Of a stretch of DNA of 64,000 bases, positions 1,776-44,966 are shown piece by piece. The notes under the pieces are model-generated. The model was not told the origin of the DNA. It was given only the letters and a program-made list of their open reading frames with translations, and searched no databases. Origin of the DNA: Stratiformator vulcanicus. GTDB lineage: Bacteria; Planctomycetota; Planctomycetia; Planctomycetales; Planctomycetaceae. A program made the position numbers and the translations under genes. Location: NCBI RefSeq assembly GCF_007744515.1, contig NZ_CP036268.1, forward strand, positions 4,050,088 through 4,114,087. The letters are read 5' to 3'. Position 1 is the stretch's first letter; every line of letters starts with the position of its first letter.

Positions 1776-1845
1776 ACAAGCCGCGCACGCAGTAAGCGGA
1801 TCTTCATCCGCGACGCCTCATCCGCTTACTACGTGCGCGGCTTGT
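1776..1845. repeat. family A palindromic element (26-bp inverted repeat)
   Basis: Left arm 1776-1801 reads ACAAGCCGCGCACGCAGTAAGCGGAT. The right arm at 1820-1845 is its reverse complement with one difference; the spacer is 18 bases. The same arms recur at 32767-32831 and 44821-44966, and the arm ends (AAGCCGCGC and AAGCGGATC) match the long repeats flanking the transposase at 7.8-8.5 kb. It lies 20 bases after the thioredoxin-like gene, so it could also act as a transcription terminator-like hairpin. Confidence 0.9.
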
Positions 1846-5791: not shown

Positions 5792-7642
5792 CTAACGAGC
5801 GGCGAGTTGACCGCCGAACTGCATCGCCTGACGAACCAGTTCTAAGAAGCCTTTTCGATACCCGTGCGGGTCATCGCTCGAGGCGCCTTCGGCGATCTCT
5901 AATGTCGCCGCGAGATTGGCGTCTCCTCGATACTTCGATTGCCGCAGCAGCAATCCGAACTGCGCGACAGCGGCCGCGAACTGGTAATCGTCCGAGGCTT
6001 TATCGAACTCCGTGCCGGCATCGACGGCGGGCACCTCGAATGGCGTGCTGACGTCTTCGTCCGGCAATTTGTAGCGGAGCCGGACCGTCAAAGCCTCATC
6101 ACTCGCCGCAGCAGCCGGTGACACTTCGGCAGGCTGCTGATATTTCGACGCCTCCACGTCACCGGCCGGAATCTCGCCTCCCGGCGGGATTAATTCATAG
6201 AGCGCCGTCACAGTATGGCCTGCGCCAATCTCGCCCGCATCTTTAGTATCGTCTTTAAAATCTTCGGCTCTAAGCATCCGGTTTTCATAGCCGATCAATC
6301 GATACGCCGCGACCTGAGTCGGATTAAAATCGACTTGAATTTTCACATCCTTGGCGATGGTGACCAGCGTGCCGCTGAGTTGATCGACCAGCAGCTTCTT
6401 CGCCTCGGCCAGCGAGTCGATATAGCCGTAATTTCCGTTGCCTTTGTCCGCCAGCTTTTCCATCGTGCTGTCTTTATAATTCCCCATACCGAAGCCGAGC
6501 ACGCTGAGGAATACGCCGGTCTTGGCTTTCTCTTCGATCAGATCGACAAGTTCGCTCTGAGAGGTCGTACCGACATTAAAATCACCGTCCGTGCAAAGGA
6601 TCACCCGGTTCACGCCTCCTTCCATATAGTTCGCCACCGCCGTGTCATACGCCAACTGAATACCCGCGCCGCCGTTGGTAGAACCGCCGGCGGAGAGGCG
6701 ATCAATCGCGGCCTGTATCACCTCCCGCTGGTCTGCGGTCGTCGAAGGCAATACGAGACCCGAGGCGCTCGCGTAGACCACGATCGCCACTTTGTCGTTC
6801 TCGCCCAGTTTTTCGATCAGCATCCGCATCGACTCTTTCACGTAGCCGAGCTTATTCGGGTTCTGCATCGACCCGGACACGTCCAGCAGAAACACGAGGT
6901 TCGTCAGCGGGCGATCTTCGTTCTTAATTTCCTTCCCCTTAATACCGATGCGACACAGCCGGTGCTCCCGCTCCCAAGGACAACCGGCAAACTCGACATG
7001 CACGGCGAAAGGTTTGTCATCGGTCGGGGGCTCGTAGCCGTAGTCGAAATAATTAATCATTTCTTCAATGCGGACCGCCCCGCGCGGCGGCAGCGAGTTA
7101 TTGGTCAGGAAGCGACGAACATTCGCGTAGGAGGCCGTGTCAACGTCGATCGAGAATGTGGACAGCGGATTCTGCGTGACCTTTCGGAAGTCATTCTCCA
7201 CAACGTTGTCATACGACTCGGTGTTAAACGCTGTGTCTTCAATGACAGCAAACTCATCCGCGTCGCGGCTTGCTACGGGCGATTCCCTTAACATTGACTG
7301 CCGGGCTCTTGGCGACGCCGGCGGCGCGCCTTCAAAATTTGACTTCAACAGGTCATTGGATCGGCTTCTGTAGCGGCTCTCACCGGACACCTGCTCGGCG
7401 GGCGACGCCTGCCCGGTTTCGGCGGTGGAAAAGGCGATGTCGAATTGTTCGGTGCCCGATCTTCGTGACGCTTCTCTCGCCTGATAAACAGCGGGGAGTA
7501 GCATCGCGACCCCGAAGCCGACGGCTATGACAGCGACGCCGAGGCCAAGCCACCAGCCGCGACGACGACCGCGTGCGGCAGGGGCCGGTCGCTCTTGTGC
7601 GTCATCGCCGTTTGTCGTTCCGTTGGAATTTGTTTCGGCCAT
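5792..7642 (-). CDS. von Willebrand factor A domain protein, YfbK-like
   Basis: 616 residues. A cytoplasmic N-terminus rich in Arg and Pro precedes a single membrane segment (about 31-53) and a disordered linker. A conserved YfbK N-terminal region (NPLSTFSIDVDTASYANVRR, about 158-177) comes next, then a VWA domain with the metal-ion adhesion motif D254-V-S-G-S258. The region after about residue 430 resembles the DUF3520 domain that normally closes YfbK proteins. Such proteins are predicted extracytoplasmic metal-dependent adhesion or scaffold proteins; the ligand is unknown. The AVYQAREASRRS stretch after the membrane helix resembles planctomycete pseudopilin tails, although no FTLxE precedes it. 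It appears to be a single-gene unit ending in hairpins. Confidence 0.88.
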   Translation of the reverse strand: MAETNSNGTTNGDDAQERPAPAARGRRRGWWLGLGVAVIAVGFGVAMLLPAVYQAREASRRSGTEQFDIAFSTAETGQASPAEQVSGESRYRSRSNDLLKSNFEGAPPASPRARQSMLRESPVASRDADEFAVIEDTAFNTESYDNVVENDFRKVTQNPLSTFSIDVDTASYANVRRFLTNNSLPPRGAVRIEEMINYFDYGYEPPTDDKPFAVHVEFAGCPWEREHRLCRIGIKGKEIKNEDRPLTNLVFLLDVSGSMQNPNKLGYVKESMRMLIEKLGENDKVAIVVYASASGLVLPSTTADQREVIQAAIDRLSAGGSTNGGAGIQLAYDTAVANYMEGGVNRVILCTDGDFNVGTTSQSELVDLIEEKAKTGVFLSVLGFGMGNYKDSTMEKLADKGNGNYGYIDSLAEAKKLLVDQLSGTLVTIAKDVKIQVDFNPTQVAAYRLIGYENRMLRAEDFKDDTKDAGEIGAGHTVTALYELIPPGGEIPAGDVEASKYQQPAEVSPAAAASDEALTVRLRYKLPDEDVSTPFEVPAVDAGTEFDKASDDYQFAAAVAQFGLLLRQSKYRGDANLAATLEIAEGASSDDPHGYRKGFLELVRQAMQFGGQLAAR

Positions 7643-7786
7643 CGTTCCATCCCGAGCTCAAAGATCGCGATCGGCCACGACAACTCCGCCGCGGCACGGC
7701 TGAACATTCGACGCTACGAGAAAAACGAGAGTTCCCGAAAAATTTCGACCGAAGAATTTATGAAGATACGAAGGACCCCCACATTA

Positions 7787-7917
7787 AAGCCGCGCCCGGT
7801 AGGAAGCGGATCAGGGGCAGGGTGCGAATCACGTGGCGTGTCCCACTCTATCTTGATTTTGTCGCCGCCGTGAGTTCGAAGCGTCGGCTCTGATCCGCTC
7901 CTTACCAGTCGCGGCTT
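7787..7917. repeat. RAYT-flanking long palindromic repeat, copy 1
   Basis: 131-bp element whose ends form an imperfect 27-bp inverted repeat: left arm 7787-7813 (AAGCCGCGCCCGGTAG...) and right arm 7891-7917, matching at about 23 positions. The interior is closely similar to copy 2 at 8418-8547 and in the same orientation, so the transposase gene sits between direct repeats. The arm ends match the short family A palindromes elsewhere in the window. It begins 10 bases beyond the stop of the minus-strand transposase gene. Confidence 0.92.
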
Positions 7918-7925
7918 CAATAGTT

Positions 7926-8399
7926 TTATTTGCGATCTTGATCTTCAATCACATAGCGAACGGCATTCTCGAAGGCGAAATCGTCCCACAAGACGCGAGC
8001 GCTGCCGCCGCGGGTCCAGAACTTTTTTCGATTCGAGATGACTGATTTCAAACCGCGGGTCGCGTAGGACTTGAGGCTGCTCATCACGCGATCGCCTGCT
8101 TTGCCCACGGCCGTCATAACAATATGAATGTGATTGGAACGTACATTCAAAGCATGGACGGACCAATTGACGACTTCGCAATGCTCACGAATCGCGGACT
8201 CAGCAATCCGACGTTGGTCGGTTGTGAGTACAAAGGGAGGTTCTGTCAGCCGCTCACGGCACGACGCGGCGAGCGCAGCACATTCTTCCCAAACTCCCGG
8301 CCGGTCCGCTCTCACCCACCCTCGCGCGTCACCGGGAAGCCAAGTGCCGTACGTCGTCCAAGTGAGAAAATAGGCGAGTGGTTCGCTACTTGTATTCAT
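7926..8399 (-). CDS. REP-associated tyrosine transposase (RAYT, Y1/HUH family)
   Basis: 157 residues, typical length for a RAYT. The N-terminus AYFLTWTTYGTWLPGDARGW is the characteristic opening of planctomycete-type RAYTs. The HUH metal-binding motif is H90-I-H92 in VRSNHIHIVM, and the probable nucleophilic tyrosine is Y112 in LKSYATR. The C-terminal WDDFAFENAVRYVIEDQ helix matches the family ending. Known relatives cleave and rejoin single-stranded DNA at REP palindromes. All predicted catalytic residues are present, so the gene looks intact. It is flanked by direct copies of a palindromic repeat that may be its substrate; that link is inferred from position and from shared ends with other palindromes in the window. 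Confidence 0.93.
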   Translation of the reverse strand: MNTSSEPLAYFLTWTTYGTWLPGDARGWVRADRPGVWEECAALAASCRERLTEPPFVLTTDQRRIAESAIREHCEVVNWSVHALNVRSNHIHIVMTAVGKAGDRVMSSLKSYATRGLKSVISNRKKFWTRGGSARVLWDDFAFENAVRYVIEDQDRK

Positions 8400-8417
8400 A
8401 GCCCTTCGCTTAAATTG

Positions 8418-8547
8418 AAGCCGCGCCCGGCAGGAAGCGGATCAGGGGCAGGGTTCGAAATTCGTGGTGCGTCCCACTCCATCGCAATCTCGTCGCCGCC
8501 GTGAGTTCGGGGCTGCGGCTCTGATCCGCTCTTTGCCAGTCGCGGCT
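8418..8547. repeat. RAYT-flanking long palindromic repeat, copy 2
   Basis: Second copy of the repeat at 7787-7917, same orientation, starting 19 bases upstream of the transposase start. Left arm 8418-8444 (AAGCCGCGCCCGGCAG...) pairs imperfectly with right arm 8522-8547. Interior segments such as GTCGCCGCCGTGAGTTCG are identical to copy 1, while other positions have drifted, so the two copies are not very recent duplicates. It lies between the transposase start and the end of the nuclease gene. Confidence 0.92.
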
Positions 8548-8594
8548 ACATCGTTACCTTAAAAATCGCATCTCTCTTTGCGAACGTCACGCTC

Positions 8595-9989
8595 TTAAAC
8601 CTCGAATGTTTCGCCGAACTCTGGGATTTCGGGGTCTTCATCGCAGCAGTCCCGGATGATCCCCGCGAATCGCTTCGCGACGTCGGGGTCGCCGTGGACG
8701 AGGAAGCAGCGGCCGATGCCGCCTTCGCTGGCGAGTCCTTCGAACCACCACTTGAGATCTTCGACGTCGCCATGAGCGGAGAGGCCGCTGATCTGCTCGA
8801 CCTTGGCCCGCAGAGGAAGTTCACGATCGAAAATGCGGACCTTCGGGTGGCCTTCCTGTAATCGCCGACCCAGTGTGTGCGGGGCCTGATAGCCCGCCAG
8901 AATAATACGATTATTCGGGTCGGCGACGGCATGTTTTAAGTGATGCCGCACCCGGCCGTTCTCGCACATCCCGCTGGCCGAAATAATCACACAGGGCTCC
9001 TTCAACGAATTAATCGCCATACTGTCGTGCCGGCTGCGAATATACATCAAGCCTTCGAATTCAAATAAATCGTCATCGGTAATTAAGACCCGCTGCGCGT
9101 CTTCATCCAGAATGTCTTGATGGTCGCGATAGACGTTCGTCAGGCGTGTCGCGAGGGGTGAATCAACGAAGACTTTCATCTCCGGCAACAGTTTTAATTC
9201 CCACAGCTCATTTAAATAATAGACGATCATCTGGGTTCGGCCGAGGCTGAACGCCGGGATAACGACCCGCCCGCCATTTGATTGGGCCTCGGTGAGAATG
9301 CGAAGCAATTCGCCTTTGATATCACTCTGTGGCGGATGAGTCCGATTGCCGTAGGTGCATTCGCTGATGAGCACATCACAGCCGGGCACGATCGTCGGGT
9401 CGGGCAATAGCGGTTTGCCCCGTCGCCCGAGGTCGCCGGTGAAGACAAGGCGTTTGCGACCGCGGCGATCGTCGACATCAATTTCGACAATCGATGAGCC
9501 CAACACATGGCCGGCCGAACTGAAGCGGACTGATAGAGCAGGGGAGAGTTCATGCCACTCATTCGAACCGAGCGGCTCAAATAGCCCGATCGCCCCGTGA
9601 GCGTGTTCTTTCTCGTAAAGCGGCTCCGAGGCGGGAGCATCCGGCCCAAGCCTGCGCTCCATGTACTTGGCGTCTTCCTCTTGAATATGAGCCGAGTCGA
9701 GCAGCATGATTGACGCGATGTCGGCCGTCGCCGGGCTGCAATAAATCGGCCCGCGATACCCTGCTTTATAAAGCCCCGGCAGGTTGCCGCAGTGGTCGAT
9801 GTGGGCGTGCGACAGGAACACCGCGTCGAGCTTTTGCGGCTCACAGTGAAAGCGACGATTCTTCTTATCACTTTCGGCCCGCCGTCCCTGAAAGAGCCCG
9901 CAGTCGAGCAGGAATCGCAGCTCATCGGTTTCGACAAGATGCTGGCTGCCGGTGACTTCGCCCGCGGCGCCGAGGAAGGTGAGTTTCAT
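8595..9989 (-). CDS. metallo-beta-lactamase/beta-CASP ribonuclease (CPSF73/Ysh1-like)
   Basis: Predicted RNA-processing nuclease. Motif 2 of the metallo-beta-lactamase fold is HAHIDHCG at residues 61-68. Further zinc or catalytic motifs follow: SAGHVLGS, FTGDLGRRGKPLL and SECTYGNRTHP. The beta-CASP insertion includes VVIPAFSLGRTQMI and ISASGMCENGRVRHHL, and the C-terminal RMMBL segment includes SGLSAHGD. The 464-residue length fits bacterial homologues of the CPSF73 type rather than RNase J, which is about 550 residues. Substrates in bacteria are not settled; RNA 3' or 5' processing is the family expectation. The start MKLTFLGAAGEVTGSQ is the typical family N-terminus. Confidence 0.92.
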   Translation of the reverse strand: MKLTFLGAAGEVTGSQHLVETDELRFLLDCGLFQGRRAESDKKNRRFHCEPQKLDAVFLSHAHIDHCGNLPGLYKAGYRGPIYCSPATADIASIMLLDSAHIQEEDAKYMERRLGPDAPASEPLYEKEHAHGAIGLFEPLGSNEWHELSPALSVRFSSAGHVLGSSIVEIDVDDRRGRKRLVFTGDLGRRGKPLLPDPTIVPGCDVLISECTYGNRTHPPQSDIKGELLRILTEAQSNGGRVVIPAFSLGRTQMIVYYLNELWELKLLPEMKVFVDSPLATRLTNVYRDHQDILDEDAQRVLITDDDLFEFEGLMYIRSRHDSMAINSLKEPCVIISASGMCENGRVRHHLKHAVADPNNRIILAGYQAPHTLGRRLQEGHPKVRIFDRELPLRAKVEQISGLSAHGDVEDLKWWFEGLASEGGIGRCFLVHGDPDVAKRFAGIIRDCCDEDPEIPEFGETFEV

Positions 9990-32563: not shown

Positions 32564-32907
32564 ACGTCGGCTCCCGCTGTTTCGTCAGGCATCATCCTTC
32601 GATTCGGTCGACGCCGCGGCCTGCGGCCCGCGAGTGCTTGGCGTCTGCAGTCAGAACCACATAACCGTGATTCCGCGATCATCCCATTACGAAATTGAAT
32701 GCGATGGGTAAAGGGGAAGTCAAGACGCGAATGTTGTGCGGAGCACGCGCGGCGCTTACTCACCGTACAAGCCGCGCACGAAGTAAGCGGATCAACCCGT
32801 TGCGTATCCGCTTACTTCGTGCGCGGCTTGTGGACTGAAAACGATGCAAGAACTTCGCGAACTCTGAACTGCGGGGACGGCACGCACCCCGGCACCGGTG
32901 TGCTCGC
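32564..32907. other. spacer with a family A palindrome
   Basis: 344 bases between two minus-strand genes. No credible gene. It carries a near-perfect palindromic repeat at 32767-32831 and must hold the promoter of the hypothetical gene and kinase pair near 32600. Confidence 0.5.
32767..32831. repeat. family A palindromic element (perfect 26-bp inverted repeat)
   Basis: Left arm 32767-32792 (ACAAGCCGCGCACGAAGTAA...) is exactly reverse-complementary to 32806-32831, with a 13-base spacer. It differs from the 1776 element only at the middle of the arms and in the spacer. Confidence 0.92.
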
Positions 32908-44820: not shown

Positions 44821-44966
44821 ACAAGCCGCGCACGTAGTAAGCGGATCGAGCGAGGTGGAAGCGGACCACGAAATAAATCGATCGTCATGCACAAGCCGCG
44901 CACGTAGTAAGCGGATCGAGCGAGGAAACTTTTCCCCTTGATCCGCTTACTTCGTGCGCGGCTTGT
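44821..44966. repeat. family A palindromic element with extra half copy
   Basis: A left arm at 44821-44846 is repeated directly at 44891-44916 (ACAAGCCGCGCACGTAGTAA..., both followed by CGAGCGAGG), while the right arm occurs once at 44941-44966. The second left arm and the right arm make a near-perfect inverted repeat over 24 bases of spacer. It lies in the convergent spacer after the ccsBA stop. Confidence 0.88.

Follow-up and report, generated by a model that had tools for sequence, protein, structure and literature searches.

The closest described relatives of the locus considered here are the class 3 TnpA-Y1 enzymes, which are described mainly from Planctomycetes, Acidobacteria and Proteobacteria (Quentin et al. 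2018, PMC6006769). According to the available text of that paper, the class has a profile of about 155 aa with the motifs NH.H, W[TA] and Y----Q and a conserved N-terminal part, and its hairpins are atypical: they lack the GT[AG]G consensus, occur in many copies and have a 5' CnGA foot. In pseudomonads, populations of REPs without a RAYT are described, in the available text, after loss of the RAYT or after an orthoswitch (Nunvar et al. 2013, PMC3686654). In the open-licence literature, as far as its available text goes, only PMC3733652 and PMC6006769 were found to treat planctomycete REPs.

The window, that is, the whole 64-kb stretch analysed here, covers positions 4050088-4114087 of the 5.23-Mb contig of Stratiformator vulcanicus. 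It contains the gene R1 (7926..8399, minus strand), encoding a HUH-Y1 transposase of the REP type. Both flanks of the gene carry a long repeat made of two inverted arms, La and Lb. It is probable, at roughly three chances in four, that R1 and these two bracketing repeats form a class 3 REPtron of the TnpA-Y1 family and that the dispersed long REPINs (La/Lb) are the cognate population of R1. In that case R1 is most likely a domesticated transposase of an already known sort. The locus resembles the class 3 REPtrons of the available text of PMC6006769 in the motifs, the length, the N-terminal conservation and the multi-copy hairpins that lack the GT[AG]G consensus, whereas the CnGA foot is not clearly present. 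The available part of the main text of PMC6006769 neither models the hairpin nor describes hetero- and homodimer populations, and it does not test whether hairpin type follows the enzyme phylogeny inside class 3; all three are given here. With E. coli TnpAREP and its Y and Z REPs, combined in BIMEs or REPINs, R1 shares the HUH-Y1 fold (4er8) and a gene bracketed by REPs, and the REPs of both systems form inverted pairs of unlike REPs and have an internal mismatch in the stem (available text of PMC8266576 and PMC6006769). By the same sources, the E. coli mismatch is AA/GC and the REP core has 29-37 nt, whereas the R1 arms have GC/AA or GA/GA, a core of 20-21 nt and no consistent GTAG foot. The pseudomonad case, in the available text of PMC3686654, is similar in that related REP classes coexist in one genome with one RAYT and that REP populations without a RAYT occur; however, the enzymes here are of planctomycete class 3, and the short and long forms differ also in arm pairing and loop size. 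The fold, the catalytic residues and the location of the hairpins on one strand are shared with IS200/IS605 elements (IS608, ISDra2), but the R1 gene has no further copies and the hairpin pairs disperse alone.

The initial annotation had reported an open reading frame of 157 residues, which is confirmed at 8399-7926 on the minus strand and matches PF01797 (E 3.1e-6). By its sequence motifs, the protein fits class 3: the NHVH-type HUH motif reads N89 H90 I91 H92, the W[TA] motif is WT at 128-129, the Y----Q motif YV[VI][AENY]EQ is represented by YVIEDQ (catalytic Y149, Q154) with D in place of the consensus E, and the length agrees with the class profile. An alignment of 68 class 3 proteins shows no variation at H92 and Y149 and almost none at H90; T13, T16, G18 and G23 are also invariant, and the conservation thus reaches the N-terminus. 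The same annotation had named H90-I-H92 and Y112 as the active site; the histidines stand, but the tyrosine is Y149, as position 112 is aligned with W, N and other residues. Two NCBIfam models match R1, both below their cut-offs, unlike E. coli TnpAREP; the score for REP_Tyr_transpos (NF047646), 29.2 bits against a curated cut-off of 80, speaks against the main reading. At E<=1e-3 this model is matched by 51 of the 68 aligned proteins. The AlphaFold2 model of R1 (pLDDT 95.2) is a monomer, silent on a swap of the last helix in a dimer. Its top Foldseek match is 4er8, TnpAREP with a REP hairpin (E 7.7e-5), nearly tied with the IS200 structure 2f4f (E 8.2e-5), and in VIA-align IS200/IS605-like enzymes score Z 11.5-13.8 against 10.8 for 4er8. 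In favour of the REP-type assignment, 4er8 covers residues 5-157 of the model, up to the last helix (rmsd 2.4 over 113 residues), whereas most IS200/IS605 chains align only up to residue 138-145, and 2fyx up to 156.

The bracketing repeats, at 7783-7919 and 8414-8550, are direct, 137 nt long and 85% identical; the repeat of about 131 bp noticed initially is the inner part, 7787-7917, and the arms with the start and end blocks ascribed to them are present in both copies. Copy A, downstream of R1 (7787..7917, plus strand), consists of arm La (7789..7809, plus) and arm Lb (7895..7915, minus). Copy B, upstream of R1 (8418..8548, plus), is oriented like copy A, with La at 8420..8440 (plus) and Lb at 8526..8546 (minus). 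In each copy the inverted arms are 85 nt apart, and the distance from arm to arm is 127 bp. The repeats lie 6 bp after the stop codon and 14 bp before the start codon of R1, in support of the main reading. All four arms have AG as the two bases directly 5' of the outer stem. GTAG, a form of the canonical foot GT[AG]G, directly precedes the hairpin in one arm of the four (Lb of copy B), and CnGA was seen by eye only within or 3' of some arms. A BLAST search of the genome with the long repeat produced 59 matches, among which only the two copies at R1 are near full length; the other matches lie within or adjoin arms, and at E<=1 the centre of the copies has no other match in the genome. R1 is flanked by genes encoding a beta-CASP metallo-hydrolase (8595-9989) and a VWA/YfbK-like protein (5792-7642). 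There are no promoter-like sites near R1 and no Rfam matches within the 64-kb window. Heterodimers similar to La/Lb, spanning exactly 127 bp as at R1, occur on both sides of a RAYT gene (L156:2089-3300) in a metagenome-assembled genome titled Dehalococcoidia. Common descent of these long elements was considered and rejected, as their centres are unrelated (25-26% identity, with an alignment score within the range of shuffles).

The initial annotation had suggested a search of the whole genome with the arm and a count of pairs by orientation and spacing. The search (at most 2 mismatches, 5.23 Mb) yielded 180 places, against 0 for the reversed pattern; many genome copies are also a feature of class 3 hairpins. 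Among the matches listed, at least 208 arms could be scored: 156 short-form arms (S), 24 La, 22 Lb and 6 intermediate arms (M). They form 65 inverted two-arm elements among these matches, namely 47 S/S, 13 La/Lb and 5 M/Lb. In the same set the distance between arms is 14-46 nt in 46 of the S/S elements and 109 nt in one, 29-85 nt in La/Lb and 44-83 nt in M/Lb. Apart from these elements, 34 arms are solitary, S/S pairs of the same direction occur four times and a La/S pair once, and 11 groups contain three or four arms; no group of arms among the matches listed has the minus-plus order. In this genome, among the matches listed, the long form is a heterodimer in 18/18 and the short form a homodimer in 47/47 scored two-arm elements. 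When labels were shuffled, as many long heterodimers appeared in 0/10000 trials, and likewise in 0/10000 when only long-family arms were considered. The S arms, 125 of 156 of which have no mismatch in loci chosen by similarity, are depleted in open frames of at least 180 codons: such frames make up 67% of bases, but contain 47 of 141 S arms. Thus the elements have the properties of REPINs (an inverted pair of hairpins, dispersed, extragenic, bracketing a RAYT), with a third of S arms inside long open frames. No RAYT bracketed by the short form was found. A dense cluster of short REPIN arms, in at least 13 places and with composite tandem repeats, is located at 1615400-1637400 of the genome (L194/L195) among ordinary genes encoding flagellin, CstA, a methyltransferase and others.

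Three short palindromes had been noted in the window, at 1776..1845, 32767..32831 and 44821..44966. All are present and retain the end blocks, and the former two are short homodimeric REPINs (S/S), but the third contains three S arms (++-), a single arm and a short REPIN. They had been described as having the same ends and a different centre; both hold, but the arms differ as well, the inner stem being AC/GT with a 3-nt GNA loop in the short form and CC/GG or CT/AG with a 4-nt loop in the long form. The suggestion of two substrate lengths in a planctomycete REP/RAYT system agrees with the two length classes, the bracketing repeats belonging to a dispersed REPIN-like population of inverted pairs. 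However, the proposal that the long form is the boundary of an autonomous element disagrees with the single copy of R1, and the idea of the short form as its non-autonomous derivative finds no support, as S/S elements are homodimers of an arm absent from the bracketing repeats. An origin of the short form by internal deletion of the long one was rejected, since the long form is always a heterodimer and the short one is a homodimer of a different arm with a GNA loop. Intermediate M arms exist between the two forms. Most simply, the short population has branched off within the same REP type, the M arms being the link.

Each 21-nt arm is a small hairpin with a 4-bp outer stem, an internal loop, a 2-bp inner stem and a G..A loop. 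This structure is supported by compensatory changes in 64 distinct arms, 50 from this genome and 14 from relatives. With 4 + 2 pairs, 93.0% of cells are paired, compared to 82.3% in shuffles and 25-52% in a slid register; 38 cells are changed on both sides against 13.7 in shuffles; and the covariation score is 0.290 against 0.117. Each of these values was reached by 0/500 shuffles, although the counts are inflated by related copies, and the patterns used to select the arms accepted either of two letters at both positions of some pairs, plus at most 3 further mismatches in this genome and at most 1 in relatives, which may favour paired variants. On the other hand, the number of pairs with two-sided changes (three; 226/500 shuffles) and the number of pair types (302/500) are ordinary. 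The variants are GC, CG and AU at pair 4-19, AU and CG at 8-15, and CG and UA at 9-14. Between La and M the inner stem is changed on both sides, and from M to S the loop loses one base. GNA loops in DNA are stable. When folded alone, La and Lb give exactly the proposed structure, but the S arm forms the outer stem only, and the energies of single arms are hardly more favourable than those of shuffles (z -0.5 to -1.8). Whole elements are able to fold as one long hairpin, and one strand of the whole short element folds strongly (z -13). However, the two arms of one S REPIN are hardly more similar (0.9585) than arms of different ones (0.9552), with equal loop bases in 33 of 47; thus the arm hairpin, rather than pairing between arms, seems to be kept. 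The other class 3 genes more commonly have type II hairpins: in 123 arms of this type the pairing is 0.885 (shuffled maximum 0.850), 22 changes are two-sided (shuffled maximum 10), and the loop is G..A in 119, a figure biased by the GCAA-loop string with at most 5 (or 6) substitutions that was used to find them. Some long-family arms of this genome have outer stems CCCC/GGGG for CCGC/GCGG (L003:2796-2816, L008:1436-1456, L009:1455-1475).

The genome encodes six class 3-like proteins, R1-R6, and no seventh at E<=10. Repeats flank each gene and differ from gene to gene; those at R2-R6 are other than those of R1, which favours the assignment of the long form to R1. R3 was suspected to be broken, but the TGA within the match is most likely its normal stop, and the frame runs from ATG to the end with the HUH motif and YVRDGQ. 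In the flanking repeats of R2 (L032:1040-2600, units of about 120-220 bp), the type II hairpins of R2 itself are joined to single S arms, in three instances with the same orientation. Upstream of a further Y1 gene, whose own repeats differ, there is a short REPIN (L037:1321-1385). In 119 relatives, with the genome itself the sole representative of its genus, R1 has matches at E<=1e-10 in 49 genomes, its own included; by E-value the best match outside its own genome is 48% identical, and none exceeds the 56% of the partial match L055. The set of class 3 domains comprised 115 sequences (80 from named loci, 29 from relatives, and R1-R6). For 94 distinct domains with 250 bp of flank at each end (10 were excluded for short flanks), a repeat common to both flanks, with a score of at least 18, was found in 85, against 11/200 for flanks taken from different loci. 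Among the nine without one are the type I genes L068 and L110, because the arms on their two flanks differ; these two count against the main reading. A long direct repeat brackets 26 of 94 genes, and thus the arrangement seen at R1 is common in the class.

This bears on two other explanations. R1 and the long repeats could together be a whole IS200/IS605-like transposon with the repeats as its ends, and hairpins of the same orientation at both ends do resemble such elements. This is very improbable: R1 is single-copy in 5.23 Mb, its next paralogue being 44% identical, no closer match exists in the 119 genomes than that given above, the long REPINs are dispersed without the gene, and long direct bracketing recurs across class 3. 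It is also highly unlikely that the palindromes act as terminators of transcription or form RNA structures that have nothing to do with R1, as the depletion in long open frames and the strong fold of the whole short element might indicate, given that the window has no Rfam match, that compensatory changes occur inside each arm while variation in one arm of an element is almost independent of that in the other, and that repeats shared by both flanks recur in class 3 far above the control.

The REP type largely follows the phylogeny of the class 3 proteins. The tree contains 100 rows from the 115 domains (L035, L036, the short L078 and L109, and 11 duplicates were dropped), and 82 rows could be labelled by REP types I-IV, by pattern, with five mislabelled rows reassigned by hand (L032 and L169 to type II; L057, L120 and L035 to unknown). 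The type changes 7 times on the tree, compared to a mean of 22.2 and a minimum of 18 with shuffled labels (0/2000 as low), which supports the main reading. Besides R1, type I is found at L068 (identical to L138), L110, L125, L134, L149, L156 and L158. These seven rows lie in a separate clade of 21 rows (support 96/90), but R1 is the sister of L055, a type II gene (support 99/85; 53% identity over 150 columns) in whose genome, G041, the type I pattern used found no arms. This placement counts against the main reading. Thus R1 may have switched its hairpin type, having had type II ancestors such as L055 and later used, or been placed between, type I elements, as in the orthoswitch of Nunvar et al. 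2013. We consider such a switch possible but somewhat doubtful: forcing R1 into the 21-row clade costs 28 log units and is not rejected (AU p 0.098), and its end branch is long (0.84). A grouping of R1 with the type I rows alone gives p 0.010, but this test is weak, because those rows do not form one clade without R1 either.

The link between R1 and the long form stands on adjacency. For the short form the functional link postulated initially is tentative, as its arms occur in genomes where no enzyme bracketed by them was found. With at most 1 mismatch the short arm is present in 4/119 genomes: 154 times in the own one and once each in G044, G045 and G051. The exact 19-nt core occurs in 3/392 genomes of the phylum, 141 times in the own genome, 17 in G456 and 3 in G284. 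A wider type I pattern found arms in 10 of 12 chosen genomes, of which G051 and G123 have the same places and surely represent a single genome. One of the ten, G045, of the same family, has 131 type I arms and no bracketed gene among those examined (5 class 3 matches and 17 of 20 PF01797 places), an ownerless REP population; none was found among 10 class 3 matches in G456 or at the single class 3 match in G284. Therefore a population of hairpins may have no visible owner, as in the pseudomonads of Nunvar et al. 2013; this counts against the main reading. The initial annotation had held that the link would fail if the arms were rare in the genome or occurred where the RAYT is lacking; they are far from rare here, but the identical cores in G456 and G284 touch the latter point. 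In contrast, in G122, with 32 type I arms, one of 13 Y1 genes, the class 3 gene L110, has type I arms beside it, in favour of the main reading. However, 8 of 10 close inverted pairs there, among the matches listed, join like arms, and thus the choice between hetero- and homodimers depends on the genome. Accordingly, the short population could belong to another RAYT, lost or unrecognized, with R1 serving the long population alone, a serious possibility that we place just on the doubtful side of even. The arms in G456, G284 and G045 argue for it, as do L125, a class 3 RAYT bracketed by M-like arms, the single S arms in the repeats of R2 and the short REPIN upstream of L037. Against it are the absence of class 3 genes beyond R1-R6 at E<=10 in this genome and the little decay of the S arms, at similarity-chosen loci, which speaks for recent upkeep; moreover, the three arms at R2 lie in copies of one repeated unit and may be one event.

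If R1 and the La/Lb elements form a REPtron, as we prefer, the unit read by the enzyme would most likely be the 21-nt arm as single-stranded DNA in its small hairpin form, with a GC outer stem, a 2x2 internal loop, a 2-bp inner stem and a G..A loop, and a REPIN would be two inverted arms with the 5' ends outward. The transposition mechanism of IS200/IS605 elements is the basis for the steps that follow. By analogy with them and with E. coli TnpAREP, R1 may bind the REPINs, nick their single-stranded DNA beside the hairpins using Y149, and transfer the strand to be rejoined elsewhere; the copy number of REPINs would thereby increase and they would spread, while the R1 gene would stay in place.

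Two questions are open in the field: what guides a RAYT to its REP, and in what way a REP family evolves when its enzyme is retained. The R1 system is useful here, as it provides a short hairpin with compensatory support, two related forms with intermediates in one genome, and about 100 enzymes with their own flanking hairpins; thus the choice of REP is testable with short oligonucleotides. It is conceivable, although rather unlikely, that class 3 REPtrons share one grammar (a GC outer stem, a purine-rich internal loop, an inner stem of 2-3 bp and a GNA or GNNA loop) in which the letters of the stem are the specificity key, that the key of R1 has changed relative to L055, and that R1 now serves both tetraloop heterodimers and triloop homodimers, linked by the intermediate arm. 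If this were true, a comparison of R1 with L055 would be a natural way to decode the protein side of hairpin choice.
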